In this document: one piece after another, positions 1,533 to 34,342 of the stretch
Layout of the letters: the number at the start of each line of letters is the position of its first letter
How positions within the stretch are numbered: the first letter of the stretch is position 1
NCBI GenBank assembly: GCA_011088145.1
Contig: JAALKG010000002.1
Span: 1 to 35,986 of the forward strand
Length of the DNA stretch: 35,986 nucleotides
Origin: Cyanobacteria bacterium MH1_Bin12
GTDB taxonomy: Bacteria > Cyanobacteriota > Cyanobacteriia > Cyanobacteriales > Cyanobacteriaceae
Reading direction: 5' to 3'
The notes under the pieces: generated by a model
Seen by the model: the letters and a program-made list of their open reading frames with translations, nothing else
What the model was told of the DNA's origin: nothing
The model's database searches: none
Position numbers and translations under genes: made by a program

Positions 1533-2729
1533 TTATTGGTTTTCAGGAAATAACCAAAGTTTTTGTATGTATTTCCAACACAATCTAACTAGCCTAATGG
1601 GATAATAGAGAGGAAACAAAATGGCTGGGAGAGGAATTGCCTTCCACTCGATCACGGTAGGAGTTGTGATAATATTAATCCAGTACCACAAACGGTCTTG
1701 CCAAGATTCCATGCTTTGGAAATAAAAGCAAGTGCTAAAAAAACCTTTTGTTTGATTGTTTGAAGACAACAGTTTCTCTATAATTTGAGTAGAAAGTCGA
1801 GTAATAATGGGTGTTGACTGTAATTTTTGACAAAGACTTTCGGGTAAATCCGTTCCGTAGATTGTCTCAATGAGATTTAGACTTAGTAAAGTCATGCGTT
1901 TACTTCCTAGTTTTCCTAGATAAGATTCTAGTAGCAACCAATCAATTTCAGGATGTTTTTGTAATAAATGGGCGAGTTCACAAATTAAGGATAAATGTGA
2001 CCAGTTATGTTTAGCTGCATGGGCGCACAGAAACAAAACTAGGATTTCTATTGTTAAAGTCTGGATTTTTTTATTTTCTAGATTTACCTCATCCAGTTTT
2101 GCCCAAATCATTTCGGATGTCGGAGAAAAAGAGAAATATTTAGGAAAAATTGACCAGTGTAAATCGATCGTCATATTTTTAGCTTCATTCCAATACATCA
2201 ATCCATAATGTAGTTTCTGATAAGCTCTTATTTGAGAATCAGTTAAATCGCATTGAGATTGATAACCCTCTTTTAGTAGTAACTTATGAACATTAACAAC
2301 CTTCGATTCGTGAATCAGCAGATCTAAATCTCCAAACTGGCGAGAAGATAGATCACCATAAGCAAGTTGAGCCAGAAGAGGCCCTTTAAAGGAAAGTACA
2401 GGGATATTTTGTCCCTCAAAAAGATTTAGTATTCTTAATAATTCTCCTGTCAAAGCCATATTTGTGCTGGTATTAGCAATGAAGTCCAAACGTAATTGAT
2501 TCAACAATTCTGATGGAACTAAATCAGGGCAATTAGCTTTGAGTTGTCGATACAGTAAGGGCATCACATTATGTTGGTAAGCCAAGGAAATTAAATATGA
2601 CCAGTCAATAGTCTGTTGTGCAAGCTGTTTTAATCGTTTCTTTTGAAGATCAGTTTTTTGCGGGTAGGTAGACCACAGTAGCAGTTCAACTTCAGATTGT
2701 TGAATTTGAGTGGGAATGTTAGTAATCAT
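1533..2729 (-). CDS. Nucleotidyltransferase-fold protein of lasso cluster (N gene)
   Basis: 398 aa from the ATG at 2729, which lies 7 bases after the upstream ABC gene stops. A longer frame to 2846 would run back into the ABC gene and is rejected. The central motif, FKGPLLAQLAYGD followed by FGDLDLLI, is the metal-binding DxD signature of the NTP_transf_5 type (uncharacterised nucleotidyltransferase) family. Members occur in lasso-peptide clusters of the paeninodin group and are proposed to modify the peptide or a phosphate on it. It is the last gene of the minus-strand cluster. The frame appears intact while its partners C, B2 and D are broken. Substrate and activity are not known. Confidence 0.8.
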   Translation of the reverse strand: MITNIPTQIQQSEVELLLWSTYPQKTDLQKKRLKQLAQQTIDWSYLISLAYQHNVMPLLYRQLKANCPDLVPSELLNQLRLDFIANTSTNMALTGELLRILNLFEGQNIPVLSFKGPLLAQLAYGDLSSRQFGDLDLLIHESKVVNVHKLLLKEGYQSQCDLTDSQIRAYQKLHYGLMYWNEAKNMTIDLHWSIFPKYFSFSPTSEMIWAKLDEVNLENKKIQTLTIEILVLFLCAHAAKHNWSHLSLICELAHLLQKHPEIDWLLLESYLGKLGSKRMTLLSLNLIETIYGTDLPESLCQKLQSTPIITRLSTQIIEKLLSSNNQTKGFFSTCFYFQSMESWQDRLWYWINIITTPTVIEWKAIPLPAILFPLYYPIRLVRLCWKYIQKLWLFPENQ

Positions 2730-2736
2730 GAGTATA

Positions 2737-3942
2737 TCAGCGATAATGTTGAGCTTGAGTAGCAAATAGGTGAGCGTAAGTACCTTCAAGTTTGAGTAAT
2801 TCTTCGTGAGTACCTGTTTCAGTGATTTTGCCACCTTCGAGAACAAAGATACGATCTGCTAGTCTGACGGTAGAGAGACGATGGCTAATTAAAATGGCAG
2901 TACGGTTGTGGGCAAGTTGGCGAAATTTAGATAAAACTTCAGCTTCAGCTTCGGCATCGAGAGCACTAGTTGGTTCGTCGAGGATGATGATTGATGCTTG
3001 ACGCAAAAAGGCTCTAGCGATCGCAATTTTTTGCCATTCTCCAATACTTAATTCTTCTCCTTCCTCAAATTCGTGACCTAGAATCGTATCATATCCATAA
3101 GGTAATTTCACAACTGCATTTTCGACTCCAGCTTGTCGAGCTGCTTGATAGATCATTTCCTCTTGTTGTAGTAACTTTAGCTCACCAAAGCCGATGTTTT
3201 CTCGAACAGTGACGTTGTAATGAACATAATCTTGGAAAACGACCGTAATTTGCTGTCTGAGCTCAGATATATTGAACTCTCGCAGGTCGATACCATCCCA
3301 AGTAATTTGTCCTTCAGTTGGGTCATAAAGTCGGCAAATCAGCTTAATCAGAGAAGTCTTGCCTGCACCATTTTCACCCACAATGGCAATAGTTTCTCCA
3401 GGTTCGATCGTCAAAGTAATGTCTTCTAATACAGGGCGAATACTATGGTGAGGATAATGAAATTTAACCCGATTAAACTCAATGCCAAACTTTAAAGGTT
3501 GAGGGATGGGGCGAGGAAATGGGGGATCAATGACTTTTGGTTCTAAGTTGAGAAATTGATAGAAATTGGATAGAAATAGACTATTTTCGTAGAGAATAGC
3601 CAAACTAGATAAAGACTCTCGCAACAAGCTTTGCCCCCTCTGAAATGCCTGGTAATACATCACTAAACTGCCCAAGCTAATCTTACCTTGCAATGTTTGA
3701 TAGGCAATGAATCCAGTCGAACCAAAAACAGCTAAAGTTCCACTCCACTGGGTAATTACCTCCGCTAGAGAACGCTGATTAGCCAAGGCTATTTTGTCTT
3801 GACGGATAGCAGTACGTAGTTCGCTGAATTGTTCTTGAAAGCGTGAACCAAGATCAAACAGGCGTATTTCTTTGGCGTAAGTTTCGTGGGTTAGTAGCCA
3901 ATTGAGATAATCAGCTCGTCTTTGTTGGGGTGTCCATTCCCT
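2737..3942 (-). pseudogene. Lasso-peptide ABC exporter (D gene), N-terminally truncated
   Basis: About 401 codons remain of a protein that is normally near 600 aa. What remains is the end of the membrane domain (readable from EWTPQQRRADYLNW at about 3939) and a complete ATPase domain: Walker A GENGAGKTS, signature LSIGEWQK, Walker B IIILDEP followed by TSALDAEA, and the H-loop ISHRLSTVRLAD. The frame is open upstream to about 3942, where it abuts a remnant of the cyclase gene, so a deletion removed the first ~200 codons with most of the transmembrane helices. No start codon is preserved; the TTG at 3786 is an internal codon. Such transporters export the mature lasso peptide and confer self-immunity. 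With so much of the membrane domain gone, export is unlikely. Confidence 0.85.
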
Positions 3943-3943
3943 A

Positions 3944-4735
3944 CATCGAACCCACAGGGGAATGACTGCGAAGACGACAACGCACTGCTTCAGTAAAAAT
4001 TTTCAGAAAAGCTTCTTCGTATTCTTCGTCTGAATCATAGTGAATTTCCTGACTAGCATCAAGTTCCCAGTAGCACTGTCAATTAAATTTTTCTTGATTG
4101 ACGGTTAAGCTATGGGCAGGAGGGAGCTTAAAAATATCTTCGTAAAAGGTAGAGGTTTTATCAATGCGTTCTAGGGTATCTACCAAAAAATCAGCGATTC
4201 TAGCTTCATTAATTCGTTTAGGGATTCGTTCCAGACAAAACAGAGCTTTAACTTCTGAAGCGAAGGCAAAAATTCGATTGGAATGGTAATAGATTAAGGG
4301 TTTACAACCCATATGATCTCTGGCACAAAAAAGTTGTTTTTGTTTGGAATCCCAAATAGCGAAGGCAAAATCACCGAGTAATTTCTGTGGACAAGCTTGC
4401 CCCCATTTTTGATAAGCATGAAGAACTAATTCACTATCAGTAATATCTGCAAAGGGGCGATGAGTCAAAGATAAAGCCTGAATTAGCTCTTCTCTATTAT
4501 CTAAACGAACATCAGCAGTGATGACGCAGTTTCCATCCGCAGAAATAGAGGGCTGTTTTTCCCTTAGAGATTCTGGACTATTCCATAACAGCCGATGACC
4601 TAAACCGCAATATTCCTCACGCCAAATACCCCTACCATGAGGTCCTCGATGGTGTAGTGTGTCCGCCATTTGCTCTAGTTCATTGGAATTAATAGGTTCT
4701 TCATCCCAATGAACAATTCCGACAATTCCACTCAT
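3944..4735 (-). pseudogene. Lasso cyclase (asparagine-synthetase-like C gene), truncated, internal TGA
   Basis: The start is the ATG at 4735, with GGAG just upstream. The N-terminal Ntn-hydrolase-like domain reads MSGIVGIVHW and then HHRGPHGRGIW. The glutaminase nucleophile Cys2 is absent, as is often seen in lasso cyclases, which do not need ammonia. An in-frame TGA lies at 4079-4081. Beyond it the same frame continues with good family similarity (CYWELDASQEIHYDSDEEY, then EAVRCRLRSHSPVGSM) and stops at the synthetase SGGxDS loop, where the sequence jumps into the ABC gene. The ATP-binding cyclase domain (about 350-400 residues) is missing. In intact clusters this enzyme activates the Asp/Glu side chain and closes the macrolactam ring. 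This copy cannot. Confidence 0.85.
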
Positions 4736-4785
4736 ACTTTCATCTCCATTAGAGTATTTTCGATAACAGCAGATTGTACTGCGGT

Positions 4786-5694
4786 TCAAAGTTCAAAATT
4801 TCTTGGATAAGTAAGACGAAAACAAGGAACTGTTTGTACAATTTGGCTCAGGAAATTAAATTCTTGTGCTACTCGAATTCGATCGCTAATATCAAAGCGA
4901 AAGACTGATTCAAGTAAATGAAACATTGCTTCTCTTGAAGATAATCGCTGAATTGAAATAGTATCTAATGTTTCTTCTTCAGGAGAAGAAAGAACGTATA
5001 TGCACCTAAGCAAAATATTCTGACAACAAAAAGCAATTCCCACATCGCTGGTATCGTATAAATGTGCTTTGTTTGTATAGTTAACCCCTCTATCTAACTT
5101 AGGTTTTTGTTCTGCAAATAAAAAATCGATCGATTCATCCCATAATCGTAATTGTGGAGGACTAGGCATTACGGAGAAAAAATCTTTCTTTTGCTCCACT
5201 AATAAAGAATCATCTGTAATAACTTCAAATCCTTTTTGTCCGAAGCTAGTTGCTAGAGTTGACTTTCCCAAACCGGATTTTCCCATAAAGGCAACTCCGA
5301 ATGTATTGATGGCGACTGCACTAGCATGAAGAAAATATTTTCCTTTATAAGTCAAAACCAGGGGCATTACTTGATTGAACAATAAGTGTGTTATGGTTTC
5401 TTGAGAAATATTTGATCGAGGATAGCAGTCAATTTTTTTATTGTAAGGAGAAAAGTGAAAATCGGCTAATTGAGGAAATTTGAGAAGATATTTATTATCC
5501 TCCTTTCCCAAAGAAAACCATATTTTCCCATTTGGAAGCGTCCAATGATGTATCCATTGACCACAAAAACTCCCAACAAAAGATGAAAAAATAAGCTGAA
5601 AATTATAGTCACAATTATTGCAACTAATTATAGGGAGGCTAGGAAAAAAAATGTTACTTTCCAAGCTTATATCGAAGTATTTATATTGATACAT
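4786..5694 (-). CDS. HprK-like kinase of lasso-peptide cluster (K gene)
   Basis: 302 aa. The P-loop GKSGLGKST (about residue 139), the preceding LHASAVAI and the following VITDDSLLVE match the C-terminal kinase fold of HPr kinase/phosphorylase. A divergent N-terminal half precedes it. In paeninodin-type lasso clusters such a kinase phosphorylates the C-terminal Ser of the precursor. The start at 5694 lies 18 bases after the B2 stop. Its last codons run past position 4789, overlapping the region upstream of the C gene start. The frame looks complete. Function is inferred from family and neighbours. Confidence 0.8.
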   Translation of the reverse strand: MYQYKYFDISLESNIFFPSLPIISCNNCDYNFQLIFSSFVGSFCGQWIHHWTLPNGKIWFSLGKEDNKYLLKFPQLADFHFSPYNKKIDCYPRSNISQETITHLLFNQVMPLVLTYKGKYFLHASAVAINTFGVAFMGKSGLGKSTLATSFGQKGFEVITDDSLLVEQKKDFFSVMPSPPQLRLWDESIDFLFAEQKPKLDRGVNYTNKAHLYDTSDVGIAFCCQNILLRCIYVLSSPEEETLDTISIQRLSSREAMFHLLESVFRFDISDRIRVAQEFNFLSQIVQTVPCFRLTYPRNFEL

Positions 5695-5712
5695 CCTGAT
5701 GTAACGATTAAT

Positions 5713-6138
5713 TTAAAAAACTTGTAATTTGTCAAACATGGTAAACTCTCGACAGACTGCCAAAGAATTCTTTAAAGGCATATTATTCCACTCTACCCAA
5801 GCATGGGCAGTAAACTGATCTAACTCTCGTTTTACCCCAATTCGTAACTGACTCTGGATTCCTTGGAGATCTAACAAAAACCACAGTATCATAGAGCTAT
5901 TGAGACAGTTAGCCCAAAGAAAATTACACCTAACTGCTATCTTTATGACTTTGCTGATTGCCTTTACTATCTGGCTATCTTCTGTTTTAAAAAGGTTTAT
6001 CCTCGATAAAATTTTAAGAGTAATTAATCTTTTTAAAAGAGATTGAGTCTGTTTTATACCTTTGAATTGGAGAGAAAAAGAGACTAAAGGGAATAGAACT
6101 AACATTTGTATTAGTAAAGTCCATTCAGCTCAGGACAT
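5713..6138 (-). pseudogene. Lasso leader peptidase (B2, transglutaminase-like), TGA at codon 3
   Basis: The visible frame starts at ATG 6105, but family similarity extends upstream: ATG (6138), TCC, TGA (6130-6132), then GCT GAA TGG, giving M-S-stop-AEWTLLIQMLVLFPLV. The AEW..LL start is typical of B2 proteins, so the TGA lies inside the original gene. The catalytic Cys (NCLNSSMILW) and His (AHAWVEW) are present. At the usual Asp position (family PLND) the sequence reads PLKN, so the third triad residue may be lost. B2 enzymes cut the leader from the precursor after B1 delivers it. A shortened protein from 6105 is possible. Gene identity is firm; the precise defect rests on remembered family alignments. 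Confidence 0.75.
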
Positions 6139-6157
6139 TTGTCTTAAGGTGTTTAAT

Positions 6158-6451
6158 TTACGTTTGAATGACTTTAACCAATTCATGTGCTATTAGCTTT
6201 TCTATTAAATTATATAAATCTTGGTGCAGTTGTTCTGGTTCTACTTCATAAATTGTTAGTAATTGCTCATAAGCTTTTTCTACTGACTCGGTTTCATTGA
6301 TGACTTCCCACATGGATGTACCGATATCATCTAAACCAAAATACTGTTCGCTATCTAAATTAAGCAAGACTGATTCATCTTCAAGTTGCTGAACTAAAAC
6401 CGATTCAGAAATAGATATTTTCACACTTTTTATTCCTTTTGTAAGCTTCAT
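6158..6451 (-). CDS. PqqD-like RiPP recognition element (lasso B1)
   Basis: 97 aa with the PqqD/RRE fold pattern: beta-strand segments followed by LNLDSEQYFGLDDIGTSMWE and a helical C-terminus. B1 proteins bind the leader peptide and present it to B2. The start at 6451 is an ATG with no strong Shine-Dalgarno. The 127 bases upstream, where a precursor gene could sit, contain no open frame starting from a plausible start codon. The gene is intact and 19 bases upstream of the original B2 start. Confidence 0.85.
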   Translation of the reverse strand: MKLTKGIKSVKISISESVLVQQLEDESVLLNLDSEQYFGLDDIGTSMWEVINETESVEKAYEQLLTIYEVEPEQLHQDLYNLIEKLIAHELVKVIQT

Positions 6452-6578: not shown

Positions 6579-7799
6579 TTATTGTTGAAGTTGTTTTTTT
6601 ATTAATGCGATCGCATCCTCATAACAAATAGGGGGAGAGAAAAAATATCCTTGTCCAAACTGACAACCTAAATTTGACAAAATTTTTAATTGTCCGGGGG
6701 TTTCTATGCCTTCAGCAACTGTTGTCATTTGTAAACCCTTAGATAAATCGATTAAGGCACGACAAATAGTTTGATGCTTATTATTATCTTCTAGGTCATC
6801 AATAAAACATTTATCGATTTTAACCGTATCAAACTTAAATTGAGTGAGATAAGCTAAGTTGGCATAACCAGTGCCAAAATGATCAATTACTAAAGGTAAA
6901 CCAAATTTGCGGCAAGATTCGACTAAAGAAGAAGCTATTTCCCCTTCAAATAAACTTCGTTCTAAAATTTCTAGTTTAATTTGCTGAGGTTTAACTTGAG
7001 AATTAGAAATTTTCTGTTGAAGAATTTCGAGAAAATTGGGATCAGAAATTTGTTTTTCAGCGATATTAATACTCAAAAAGATATCATAATCTGTCTCGGC
7101 TTTTATTTTTTCAATACTCATTAATGCTTGGTCTAATATCCATTCGCCAATAGGAATAATTAAGGAAGTTGATTCAGCCAAGGGAATAAAAACTGCTGGA
7201 GATATAAAGCCCCTAGAGACGAAAAACCAACGTAATCAAACTTCAAAACCACTAATTAAATTTGTTTTCAAATCGATAATTGGTTGAAAAAATAGCTTTA
7301 ATTCTCCTTTCTTAAAACCATTCCTTAAATCACTTTCTAGTCTAATTAATTCGATCGCTTGAATGATTTTTGTTTGATATTTTTGAGTGGTTAATTCTTC
7401 GATAGAATAATCTTTTTCTATTTGGTTGGATCTTACCCTACCAGTTTCGGAGCGAAAATATTTCATAACCACCATTAAAAGTAATTTTAAAACAGGATCG
7501 GCATCATCAATACGATTACTAACTTGTTCGCTGGTGACAACTGTTAAGGTAACATCGGTTTTGGCATGGGCGGAAGCTGAGCGAGGACGACCATCAACTA
7601 AGGCTAATTCGCCAAACATCTCACCTGTTGTTAGGGTATTGAGTATGGTGTGTTCATCATCAATATATGTCGAAATTTCAATCAAACCTTCATTAATAAT
7701 GTAGGCAACATCTCCCTCATCTCCTTCTCGAAAAAGACATTGTCCTGCTTGTAATTTATGATTAAGAAGTTCTTTTTCCCGATTATAATGACGAGCCAT
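6579..7799 (-). pseudogene. Cyclic-nucleotide-binding + EAL protein, split by in-frame TGA
   Basis: The first half (187 aa from ATG 7799; a TTG at 7841 is an alternative start) has a cNMP-binding domain with the phosphate-binding cassette FGELALVDGRPRSAS. It runs into the start of an EAL domain (LKLFFQPIIDLKTNLISGFEV). A TGA (7236-7238) then falls exactly on the Leu of the E-A/V-L signature. The same frame continues with LRWFFVSRGFISPAVFIPLAE and a full EAL domain (KLEILE, KIDKCFIDD, VAEGIET) to 6579. The DDFGTGY motif reads DHFGTGY, so one metal-binding Asp is already lost. Intact proteins degrade or sense c-di-GMP under cAMP/cGMP control. This one is probably inactive; the first half could persist as a lone cNMP domain. 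Confidence 0.85.
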
Positions 7800-7969
7800 A
7801 ATTATATTGTTGTTGAATATTTTTATTTCGATATTTTTCAAATGACCACTAGAAAAAGACTACAGTACCAAGGTAACTAACAATTAAATTATTGTTTGTG
7901 TGTGATATAAAACACAATTAGTTTTAAGTTAACCATCGGCGGTTAGAAACCCTCAATTCTCAATTGCTG

Positions 7970-8872
7970 TTATCTACTGTCTTTTAAACTACCTAAATAT
8001 AAATTACCGACAATTGTAATAAATAAACCATAAGTGACTAATTGTAATAAATAAATATGATCTCGATATCCTAATCAAGTTTTGAATAATATTCCCGGAA
8101 ATTGAGAATCTGGCAATATTTTACTCATATCCCAAATGGAAAATCCTAATAAACAGGATTGATGGGAGAAGCATAAATATTCGTAATGACTATTAATTTG
8201 ACTAAGTATAGCGATCGCATAATCTAAATTTTTTAACCCACCAATCACTAAACCAGAGACAATTAATAATAAAAATATTCCCATAACTTGAAAAAATAAA
8301 CGAATATTAATTTTAATTCCCCAATAAAATAGTCCCCATCCCATTATTACAGCTAAACTTAATCCTGCCATCGCACCTAGACAAGAACCAAAGAAATTAT
8401 CTTGTACTTGAGCATTAATAAAAAAGACAGTTTCAAACCCTTCTCTTAATACTGCGATAAACACTAACAAGAATATACCAAAACTGCTGTTGCGATCGCT
8501 ATCGAGAACCGTTTGAATGTTATTTTGCACCTCACTCTGAATAGATTTCGCTTGTTTACTCATCCAAATAAGCATCCAGCTGAGCATGGTAATGGCGATG
8601 ATTACCAACAAAGTTTTAAATAGTTGCTTCAAAAATGGTGCATATAAATAGCTACTTGATTCAATAGTGGCTAGACCTTCCCATAAGAATAAACCGACCA
8701 ATATACTGGCGACAATTCCGGTAATTACCCCCACATAAATCCAACTATAATATTCTTGTTTTTTGGCTTTCTGCAAACAAGTAAAAACGATACCCACAAT
8801 TAAAGTAGCTTCAAATCCTTCCCTTAAAGTCACAATGAAAGTCGGTAATACAGTCGAAAGATCCATACTCAT
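7970..8872 (-). pseudogene. FTR1-family high-affinity iron permease, TGA near the C-terminus
   Basis: A membrane protein with two REGFE iron-binding motifs (LREGFEATLIVGI near the N-terminus and LREGFETVFF in the middle), each in a transmembrane helix, as in FTR1/EfeU permeases. ATG 8872 is preferred (8866 is also possible; 8878 would be TTG). An in-frame TGA at 8075-8077 ends the frame after PGILFKT. The same frame then reads LGYRDHIYLLQLVTYGLFIT and stops with TAA at 7970, which matches the last helix of the family. About 34 residues are lost. The protein retains both REGFE motifs, so partial function cannot be ruled out. It is divergent from the aldo/keto reductase gene, with 71 bases between the starts. 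Confidence 0.8.
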
Positions 8873-8906
8873 AGGCAATACTTTATGTGCTATTATTTGT
8901 TACAAA

Positions 8907-13939: not shown

Positions 13940-14037
13940 TCCTTTGTTAGATTTATAGGTATTAGAATTACTCATGAATGTATCGATATAGTATCATTGA
14001 AAACAACGGTAATTTATTTTAATGATGAGAATTGTCA

Positions 14038-14727
14038 ATGCAAACATTAAGTAATCTAACTCTTAAAAACCATTCTCCTTCATCTTTTCCTTTGAGGATT
14101 ATTGCTATCGGTGATAGTTTAATTTATGGTTATGGAGATAAAGAAGCTTGTGGTTGGGTAGAAAGATTGCGTTTGAATTTGATGAATGGCAATGGTGATC
14201 ATGTATTGTATAATTTGGGTATTAGAGGCGATCGCACTGAACAAGTTAAAAACCGTTTAAATGAAGAATTTAAGCATCGAGGAGAAATCAAAAAAAAATA
14301 TCCTGACTTAATTATTTTGTCCGTTGGCGTTAACGACACAGCTCGTCTAGGACATCATCAAGGTAGAAATTTGACTCATTACGACGAATATAATCAACAA
14401 ATAAATGATTGATTAAATCAAGCCCAACAGCTTGCACCAACTTTGTTTGTGGGCATGGTACCTGTAGACGAAAGTAAAATGCCCTTTTTTGACTGTTTAT
14501 ACTTTAATTTACGAGATCAATGTCATTATAAAGAAGCTGCAAAACAAGCTTGTCAACACCAAAAAATACCCTACTTAGATACCTTTGATTTATGGATGAG
14601 TCGAGGTGAAAATTGGCGAAAATCTCAAATGTCTGATGATGGTTTACACCCTAATGAGAAAGGATATGCAACCTTATTTCAAGAAGTAAGTAATTGGGCT
14701 TTACTACGTAAAATTATCGATAAATAA
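14038..14727 (+). pseudogene. SGNH/GDSL-type lipase or esterase, split by in-frame TGA
   Basis: The start is ATG 14038. Block I with the catalytic Ser (RIIAIGDSLIYGYG), the Gly block (NLGIRGDRT) and the Asn block (ILSVGVNDTARLG) are present. An in-frame TGA (14410-14412) follows YNQQIND. The same frame then continues with LNQAQQLAPTLFVGMVPVDE and reaches the catalytic Asp-His pair (DDGLHPNEKGY), ending at 14727. Readthrough would give a full protein of about 229 codons. Without it, the Asp and His are lost and the enzyme is dead. Substrate is unknown; the family includes lysophospholipases and acyl esterases. Confidence 0.85.
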
Positions 14728-15944: not shown

Positions 15945-17347
15945 CCAGCAATTCCAAATTCGGAATGTAGCTAATAATACAGAAATAATGTTGTTCATAT
16001 TCAAAGACTGGTTAAGAAACGAATGTAGGTTTAGAGATGAGTCAAACCAGACCGTTGGAAAACATGGCGTTAAGTTTTTCAGTATTGTTAGAATATCTTC
16101 ACCAATGCATTGGTCAACTCCCAGATCCGAGAAAGGCGAGTAATGCGACTCGCTATAGCCTCAAGGATATGGTCTTAGGAGCATTTTCCCTATTTTTCAT
16201 GCAGAGTGAATCCTTTTTGGAGTATCAGCGCCAACTTCACAGTCGCTGCGGTCAGGACAATGCTCAGACTTTGTTTGGCTTGGAGAAAGTACCCACTGTT
16301 CCTCAGATTCGCAACGTTTTGGATGGGGTTGATGCTACCCATCTGTGGTCGATATTTGTCTGGTGCTATCAAGCCTTGGAACAAAGAAAGTATCTCAAAC
16401 GGTTTGAGCGATTGGGCAAAAACCTCTTAATTGCCCTTGATGGAATTCAATATTTCAACTCCGAGAAAATTGATTGTAACTGTTGCTCAACCCAAACTCA
16501 CCCCTGTGGTAAAGTTACCTATTCTCATAAGGCTATCTTTCCTGTGATTGTTGCCCCAAAACAGGAGCAGGTGATTTCTTTACCCCCTGAATTTATCACC
16601 CCTCAAGATGGTCATCACAAGCAAGACTGTGAGCAAAATGCAGCCAAACGTTGGATTGAGACCTATGGTGGTTTATTTAAAGACCGAGATATCACTTTAT
16701 TAGGAGATGACCTATTTTCTCACCAACCCATATGTGAGTTGAGTTTGACTCACCAATTCAACTTTCTCTTTGTCTGTCTGCCACAGTCTCATAACACTCT
16801 CTATGAATGGACGTTATTTTGAACTCTGGAATTATCGATATCTCAATCAGGTTCCTCTACGTGACCAACAACCAGCTCTCAAGGTCAATTGGTATGAGAT
16901 GAAAGTGACTCGTGAGAAAGATGGAGAATACCTCTATCATAATGCCTTTATCACCAACCATCTGATTACACCTCAATCGATCCATTCTTTAGGGGAATCT
17001 GGACGCAGTCGTTGGAAAACTGAGAATGAAAACCATAATGTCCTCAAAACTCAAGGATATCATTTAGAACACAATTTTGGTCACGGACAAAAGCATTTAG
17101 CCAAGGTTTTGGTAAGCCTCAATCTATTGGCCTTCCTATTCCATACTATTCTTTCTCTAGTGGATGAGCGTTATCAAAAGATTCGAAAACAACGAGGCAC
17201 TCGCAAAGGCTTTTTTCAGGACATTCTTACCTTGACGAAGTATCTACTATTTGAAAGTTGGCAGCATCTTTTGGAATTTATGCTCGCCGATTCAGCCCCC
17301 AATTTCTCTGTTAACTCTTCTTAATAATTTGAATTTGGAATTGCTGG
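15945..17347 (+). mobile_element. Insertion sequence with 17-bp inverted repeats and 7-bp target duplication
   Basis: 1403 bp. The left end CCAGCAATTCCAAATTC (15945-15961) is the exact reverse complement of the right end GAATTTGGAATTGCTGG (17331-17347). The 7-mer ATTTCCA flanks it on both sides (15938-15944 and 17348-17354), which is a target site duplication. Perfect ends and duplication indicate a fairly recent insertion into the space between the Gfo/Idh gene and tRNA-Met. The only gene inside is a DDE transposase broken by a frameshift. The family is IS4-like in its catalytic core; I cannot name it with certainty. Confidence 0.9.
16037..17324 (+). pseudogene. DDE transposase, frameshifted
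   Basis: The first part (16037-16822) carries the first catalytic Asp (LLIALDGIQYFNSEKI) and the second (ITLLGDDLFSHQP). The second part lies in another frame (readable from about 16800 to 17324) and carries the Glu-containing block (SRWKTENENHNVLKTQGYHL, then EHNFGHG). The frames change near 16805-16820, where LYEW is followed at once by NGRYFELWNYRYLNQVP. From memory of the family, the two blocks should be separated by roughly 15-20 residues, so a small deletion is likely, perhaps between copies of a short GAATGG-like repeat. No active protein is expected unless ribosomes shift frame. The start could also be the ATG at 16061. Confidence 0.85.
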
Positions 17348-33096: not shown

Positions 33097-34342
33097 ATGA
33101 GTAAGGATAGCAATTATCAAATATTAATTATTGGTGGTGGTGCCGCAGGAATAACAGTCGCATCACAACTCAAAAAGAAAAATTCTCGCTTGAAAATAGC
33201 AATTATTGAACCTTCAGATAAGCATTATTATCAACCAGGATGGACATTAGTTGGAGGAGGAGTTTTTGAGCTTGAAGAGACAGTTAAAAATGAGCAAAAA
33301 GTTATTCCTCAAGGAGTTGGCTGGATTAAAGATTCTGCTACCAATATTAATCCTGAAGAAAATGAAGTGACCACTCAAAATGGTACTGTATACGGCTATG
33401 AATATTTAGTGGTTTGTCCCGGTATAACTATCGATTGGGACAAAATTAAAGGCTTAAAAGAATCTTTAGGCAAAAAAAAAATGAGGTCACAAGTAATTAC
33501 ACCAAAGATACCGCCTCGTATACATGGGAAACCATCAAGAATTTTAAGGGTGGTACAGCTATTTTTACCTTTCCCGCAGGAGCAATTAAATGCCCTGGTG
33601 CTCCCCAAAAAATTATGTATTTGGCAGAAGAAGCTTTTACAAAACAAGGAGTGAGAGACAAAACCAAAATTATCTATGGAAATGCCACAGGGGCAATGTT
33701 TGGTGTACCCGCTTATAATCTACCTTTAGAAAAAGTTGTTGAGCGTAAAAATATTGAGGTGAAGTATGCCCATAACTTAATTGAGATTAAGGCTGATAGC
33801 AAAGAGGCTGTTTTTGCTATTGGTGAGGGAGAAACCATCACTATTAAATATGATATGATTCATGTTTCACCTCCCATGACGACCTATGACTTTATCAAAA
33901 CTAGTCCTCTTGCAAATGGTCAAGGTTGGGTTGATGTAGATAAATATACCTGTCAACATACAAAATATTCTAATGTCTTTGGTTTAGGAGACTCTTCCAA
34001 TTTGCCAACCTCCAAAACAGCCGCAGCAGTAAGGAAAGAAGCACCTGTTGTTATCGAGAATATTCTGGCTTTGATGAATAAAAAAATCCTGAGCACAAAT
34101 ATAATGGCTACGCCTGTTGTCCTTTAATTACAGGATATGGAAAAACTATTATGGCTGAATTTGATTATACCAAGCAACCGTTACCAAGCTTTCCTTTAGA
34201 TCCAACTCAAGAAAGACAGAGCATGTGGTTGGTGAAAAAATATGCCTTACCTTGGGTTTATTGGAATAGAATGCTCAAGGGCAAATCATTTGAACCTGAT
34301 AGTTGGCGTTTTTTGTTACCAGAAAATAATGGTAATACTTAA
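33097..34342 (+). pseudogene. sqr: Sulfide:quinone oxidoreductase-type flavoprotein, two poly-A frameshifts
   Basis: The segment 33097 to about 33471 has the FAD motif ILIIGGGAAGITVASQL, YYQPGWTLVGGG and LVVCPG. At a run of ten A (33472-33481) the frame changes. The second segment (to about 34080) reads IKCPGAPQKIMYLAEE, YGNATGAMFGVPAYNL and NVFGLGDSSNLPTSKTAAAV. At a run of seven A (34080-34086) it changes again; the third reads NGYACCPLITGYGKTIMAEF and ends at 34342. Together they make a complete SQR-like protein of about 415 residues. It would oxidise sulfide and reduce quinone; a type II SQR is likely. Each break needs only one or two bases to repair, so expression by slippage, or sequencing error, is possible. 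Confidence 0.85.

Follow-up and report, generated by a model that had tools for sequence, protein, structure and literature searches.

Gene content and decay of the cluster

The window analyzed here is a stretch of 35,986 nucleotides (nt) from contig JAALKG010000002.1 of Cyanobacteria bacterium MH1_Bin12 (GCA_011088145.1), and a lasso-peptide gene cluster occupies positions 1533–6451 on its minus strand. Pfam and NCBIfam assignments, with family matches far beyond chance for all six genes, gave the transcription order B1, B2, K, C, D, N, in agreement with a preliminary description of this DNA, which had further regarded the cluster as decayed and as paeninodin-type. B1 (6158–6451) is an intact open reading frame (ORF) of 97 amino acids (aa) for a PqqD-like recognition element (RRE) of ribosomally synthesized and post-translationally modified peptides (RiPPs; NF033536, 56 bits; PF05402, 54 bits), and is 64–65% identical to B1 of the relative loci L032 and L026. 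B2 (5713–6186), a leader peptidase (Transglut_core3; NF033537, 62 bits; PF13471), starts at 6186 within the end of B1. K (4786–5694) encodes an HprK-like kinase of 302 aa, the match of which is weak in both libraries (TIGR04352, 45 bits; PF07475, Hpr_kinase_C, 32 bits and just under the cut-off), yet it spans the P-loop region, and the catalytic motifs GKSGLGKST (P-loop) and TDD are kept, GKST and DD being common to an alignment with twenty relatives. C (about 3947–4735) is the amidotransferase (GATase) half of an AsnB-like lasso cyclase, for which NF033535 (lass_lactam_cya) was the best model with 346 bits versus 157 for the next one; the score is under the whole-protein cut-off of that model, half of the protein being gone, and what remains is 53–59% identical to intact cyclases of 635–704 aa. 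D (2737 to about 3957) comprises the C-terminal two thirds of an ATP-binding cassette (ABC) exporter with an intact ATPase domain (PF00005, 125 bits), and is 65–67% identical to D of L125 and L026 from residue 198–237 on. N (1533 to about 2729) is an intact ORF for an NTP_transf_5 nucleotidyltransferase (PF14907, 203 bits), which has the motif GDLDLLI and is 41% identical to its counterparts in L114 and L026. Thus, the combination by which lasso clusters are generally recognized, namely an RRE protein B1, a transglutaminase-like B2 and an AsnB-like C, is present, with C only as its amidotransferase half.

The reading frames of C, D, B2 and K are damaged in the assembled sequence. C is interrupted by an in-frame TGA at 4079–4081, at a site that is hydrophobic in relatives (consensus GIxLxxYW versus KFN*QCYW, the asterisk being the stop), and it ends at RSHSPVGSM, at the ATP-binding motif (PP-loop, VGSM), beyond which relatives continue for about 400 residues. 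The bases directly after this end encode D from about residue 198–237, the N-terminal 200 residues or so of D being gone, and the end point of the deletion lies at 3947–3957, where the tblastn alignments of C and D overlap at their extremities. With this deletion, C lost at least about 400 residues and D about 200, along with anything that lay between the two, and about 1.8 kb of coding sequence is missing at the fusion. In B2, an in-frame TGA at 6130–6132 has homology on both sides, as tblastn of B2 from L026 aligns over 6186–5728 through the stop (HAWVEWNNMPLKN against HAWVEYDGQVLND); its Cys and His are kept, and the Asp 12 residues after the His, which we take to be catalytic as in the McjB family, is replaced by Asn. 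The stop of K is a TGA (4786–4788) at a conserved Leu-Pro site, and homology to its best relative runs past it to 4756. The neighboring genes cNMP-EAL (6579–7841) and FTR1 (8075–8878) are also interrupted by TGA. Judged from its sequence, the cluster as assembled is non-functional, because C is truncated and fused to a headless D, B2 carries both a TGA and the Asp-to-Asn change, and no precursor was found. The decay reported in the preliminary description is therefore borne out in the assembled sequence, and is broader than had been claimed.

It is unlikely that the genome in fact has an intact cluster and that the C/D join and the nonsense codons result from the low quality of the draft (67.5% complete, in 190 contigs). 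Such an artefact would be consistent with the low completeness, and also with a sample of 12,361 aligned residues of the same genome, compared against the proteins of relatives (chiefly those of G003), in which four of the seven in-frame stops are TGA and all four fall at Leu, hinting at a systematic base error or a mutation bias. It is opposed by the missing Asn_synthase half of C, which was found nowhere else in this draft assembly, by the Asp-to-Asn replacement in B2, a coding change unrelated to TGA, by a repeat search, in which none with a copy where C meets D came up to explain a collapse, and by the interruption of the adjoining cNMP-EAL and FTR1 genes. A candidate second copy of the missing half, a match on C87, was rejected since it reads as QueC. 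As the TGA codons may stem either from decay or from base error, and some could be sequencing errors, decay is better evidenced by the deletion and by the loss of the Asp.

Apart from those in C and K, in-frame TGA codons in the window lie at 7236–7238 (EAL), 8075–8077 (FTR1) and 14410–14412, and relatives (L285 and L280 were compared) have Leu at the sites in EAL and FTR1, and probably also at those in K and C. The premature TGA codons at Leu prompted the idea that TGA is read as Leu in this genome, which was rejected: true gene ends still fall at TGA (3 of 30 homologous ends) and no tRNA with a UCA anticodon occurs among 28 tRNA loci, so that recoding does not apply; in addition, the premature stops include TAA and TAG, and open stretches past TGA are barely longer than in a relative. 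An excess of Ile-to-Ser exchanges (8 versus 1) hints at a general pattern of T-to-G errors in sequencing, but other pairs are equally skewed. Further broken genes were observed on the same contig: the frame of a GDSL-like gene at 14032 likewise continues past the TGA at 14410–14412, and a sulfide-quinone-reductase-like gene (33097–34127) and a transposase (16037–17324) are each split into two overlapping frames.

Intact relatives and the missing precursor

About a quarter of the genomes sampled from the order (96 of 391) have a homolog of the kinase. About 140 relative loci were annotated in two collections, one of them consisting of named genomes found via the cyclase; some genomes are in both, and the cyclase-locus counts below are not fully independent. 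In most loci examined, the kinase sits within a lasso cluster, usually with the nucleotidyltransferase and a recognizable precursor (A), and most loci read B1-B2-C-A-K-D-N with one to five copies of A. Intact clusters are present in Moorena bouillonii PNG, Dendronalium, Brasilonema, Fischerella and Oscillatoria PCC 10802. In the metagenome-assembled genome (MAG) of Cyanocohniella sp. LLY (L180), K, D and N stand beside C and A; a lasso cluster of this organism has been published, and the text passages available from that paper make no mention of a kinase or nucleotidyltransferase in it (PMC9332814). The expectation in the preliminary description that intact relatives carry a precursor proved correct, as 166 distinct precursors were collected from 116 loci. 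Intact clusters with precursors are common. The gene immediately ahead of C is K in just 3 of 150 cyclase loci (L176, L117 and L200), and the window order B1-B2-K-C-D-N departs from the usual one, which is typical rather than strictly defining.

The precursors of relatives match the lasso_cyano family (NF033528), and that of the Priestia control belongs to the paeninodin family (NF033524) and has a W leader; in a scan with NF033528, three of nine relatives' precursors scored above the 33-bit cut-off and one just below. As the pattern used to find precursors required a P after Y, W or F, and at position -2 one of T, I, S and V, the leader statistics, in contrast to the C-terminal ones, are partly built in: the [YWF]xxP position is Y in 145 of 166, W in 18 and F in 3, and Thr is at -2 in 164. 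The first acidic residue from core position 7 on stands at position 9 in 88 precursors, 10 in 26, 8 in 25, 7 in 12 and 11 in 11, and thus at position 7–10 in 151 of 166.

No precursor with a Y/WxxP leader was found in the first 9 kb of the window, either by a YxxP scan or by a wider [YWF]xxP scan, and a profile of the relatives' precursors had no match in the genome itself, a search made in a 67.5% complete draft and run without a positive control. Because C is directly followed on its 3' side by a precursor gene in 133 of the 150 cyclase loci (and in four more by one on the opposite strand), the precursor of the window was probably lost in the C/D deletion. L176, in which K is followed by C-A-D-N, has the order proposed for the ancestor of the window cluster, and C-A-D-N is also found in L221.

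Loci of other composition were also observed. No cyclase was found in L090, L093, L115, L116, L119, L123 and L124, the clusters of which contain B1, two precursors, K, B2, D and N in this order; their precursors have cores of the QVGGSGGF type without an acceptor Asp or Glu at positions 7–10, and in L119 (4375–13450) ORFs reading as a glycosyltransferase and an epimerase stand between K and B2. Judging from these genes, such loci are possibly a linear counterpart to the linear polyphosphorylated peptides (LPPs) of Bacillota. In a distant lineage of the phylum, tandem proteins of about 311–327 aa matching the B1 (RRE) model (L236, 11143–15982; L235, 6308–8234) stand beside C, A, K, D and N, and proteins of 403–425 aa with a B1 match occur in L164, L181, L185, L189, L206 and L213. 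On a plasmid of the haloarchaeon Halopiger xanaduensis (L153, 4710–12483), N, K, C, B2, B1 and D are accompanied by a candidate precursor of the YxxP type.

The cyclase-less clusters and the preserved motifs of K and N would suit a working minimal system in the window, in which B1, K and N modify a peptide encoded elsewhere without cyclization, in the manner of the LPPs. We consider this highly improbable, given that the profile search of the genome found no precursor (again without a positive control), that D lacks part of its membrane domain, and that the stop of K interrupts its homology.

Phylogeny, chromosomal site and origin

In the kinase tree, K of the window falls together with L228 (from a MAG that is labelled Chromatiaceae) and L234 (from a further cyanobacterium in the class), with support 98/86, and the Bacillota kinases lie far off. 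N falls within a cyanobacterial clade with L114 and L026 (100 in the Shimodaira-Hasegawa-like approximate likelihood ratio test, SH-aLRT), the Bacillota sequences being outside, in a quick tree with weak deep support. The comparison with the Paenibacillus enzymes proposed in the preliminary description, made here against Bacillota sequences, places both window proteins outside the Bacillota branch. In L228 and L234, an ORF predicted to encode a protein-arginine-type methyltransferase lies directly before K, and in L034 a similar methyltransferase-like ORF separates K from C.

Of the paeninodin-type assignment, one part stands, as an HprK-like kinase and an NTP_transf_5 gene do occur in a decayed cyanobacterial lasso cluster, and paeninodin membership does not. 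The cyclase family (NF033535), the precursor family of relatives (NF033528, not NF033524), the leader (YxxP, not WxxP), the gene order and the K and N trees all differ from those of the Bacillota loci, so the window cluster is not a paeninodin member by descent. These differences, together with a report that paeninodins are confined to Bacillota and have an almost invariant WxxP leader (PMC13381572), make it very unlikely that a Bacillota-derived set phosphorylating a C-terminal Ser has decayed here, even if Priestia (L151, L242) carries genes for the same functions (C, A, K, B1, B2 and D, with N) and some cyanobacterial precursors end in Ser (37 of 166), including those of L110, L117 and L125, which are among the nearest relatives by D and B2.

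The cassette sits between hpf and cNMP-EAL-FTR1. In two genomes of the same family, G004 and G012, the segment 1442–6578 is missing (compared with L275 and L276), and hpf adjoins cNMP-EAL-FTR1 with 31 or 54 bp between hpf and cNMP-EAL. No kinase match was found in the family's remaining 14 genomes. Gain of the cluster in the lineage of the window is a simpler reading than loss in its relatives, and the cluster presumably entered horizontally. A search for target-site repeats at the cluster ends gave only a pair of 17 nt with 82% identity, which is likely due to chance.

Taken together, we estimate with a probability of about 0.83 that the window contains, in decayed form, a lasso cluster of the type with kinase and nucleotidyltransferase that is common in cyanobacteria. 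As far as the families are understood, B1 of the working cluster would have bound the YxxP leader, B2 would have cut after the residue following Thr(-2), C would have closed the ring by joining the core N terminus to an Asp or Glu some 8–10 residues on, K would have phosphorylated a Ser or Thr of the tail, N would have made its addition to that phosphate, and D would have exported the product. A single deletion would then have taken the precursor, the 3' half of C and the 5' end of D, and no product would now be made.

Several points weigh against this reading. K belongs to a divergent subfamily, its best relatives being only 35% identical. Loci such as L026, L110 and L125 are similar to the window in B1, B2, D and N, and C is nearest to the Dendronalium/Atlanticothrix/Moorena type; with different nearest loci for these genes, the cluster looks mosaic and without a close intact counterpart. 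In Oscillatoria PCC 10802 (L117 and L200, one strain present in both collections), the precursors are placed between B2 and K, and the lost precursor of the window may have lain there as well, which makes its loss in the C/D deletion uncertain. No precursor is left in the window to examine, and the deletion or the nonsense codons could be faults of assembly or base calling.

Tail motifs and comparison with known systems

The preliminary description had envisaged C-terminal phosphorylation, which does not follow from the presence of a kinase, because a C-terminal Ser occurs in 37 of the 166 precursors (double the share that Ser has in the cores, 0.106) and the Bradymonas lasso kinase (bsf) modifies Ser3 (PMC10368454). 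The gene set would act as in other lasso clusters that have these two enzymes: for pseudomycoidin, it is the terminal Ser that the kinase phosphorylates, and hexoses are then attached to this phosphate by N (PMC8498205). C-terminal phosphorylation may still apply to the window cluster, as several of the nearest relatives by D and B2 (L110, L117 and L125) have a terminal Ser; the precursors of the nearest relatives by K (L228 and L234) end in Pro or Ala. Two other tail motifs are in excess, in counts that kinship among the precursor sequences inflates: [GDN]Sx[DG] in 66 precursors, nearly all with long cores, versus 29.0 in shuffles (maximum 40), and [NFLS][KR][TS] near the end in 19 versus 3.3 (maximum 9). 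When the motifs were mapped on the kinase tree, a near-terminal [KR][TS] required 4 changes versus 13.0 when shuffled (0 of 400 as low), GSxD 7 versus 10.0 (3 of 400 as low) and C-terminal Ser 9 versus 12.1. These patterns lead us to suggest, tentatively and at less than even odds, that tailoring by kinase and nucleotidyltransferase may be standard in cyanobacterial lasso peptides and that kinase clades may have diverged to different tail sites (an internal GSxD-like Ser, a near-terminal (K/R)(T/S) or the terminal Ser). Linked inheritance explains the tracking of motifs with the kinase tree as well as kinase specificity does.

The window locus itself is a fossil of little weight, a decayed member of a known cyanobacterial family, and the part of greater weight is the spread of the kinase in the order together with tail motifs that track its tree. 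In the literature consulted, lasso kinase tailoring has been described mainly in Bacillota and Proteobacteria, and larger surveys may already include cyanobacterial kinase clusters. The named strains with intact clusters make the phosphorylation site testable.

Among known systems, the window cluster shares with cyanobacterial lasso peptides (NF033528 and NF033535; for instance the cluster of Cyanocohniella sp. LLY, PMC9332814) the cyclase family, the split B1/B2, the precursor family of its relatives and the neighborhood, and differs from them in that the precursor, one half of C and a portion of D are gone, in K standing before C, and in the divergent subfamily of K. With the Bacillota paeninodin clusters of Priestia aryabhattai pB2.3 (L151) and Paenibacillus cellulosilyticus (L150), it has in common the HprK-like kinase, NTP_transf_5, B1, B2, C and D; these clusters differ in their NF033524 precursor, WxxP leader and C-terminal Ser (Priestia), in the order C-A-K-B1-B2-D, and in the separate branches of their K and N. 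The Bradymonas (bsf) and Sphingobium (Syan) clusters, likened here by their description, also have lasso kinases outside Bacillota, which act on the linear precursor (PMC10368454, PMC8498205). Finally, the LPP clusters of Bacillota (PMC13381572) share the RRE, the HprK-like kinase, the NTP transferase and the exporter, and have no cyclase, as in the cyclase-less cyanobacterial loci, but an archaeal-type signal peptidase replaces B2 in them, whereas the window retains half a cyclase.

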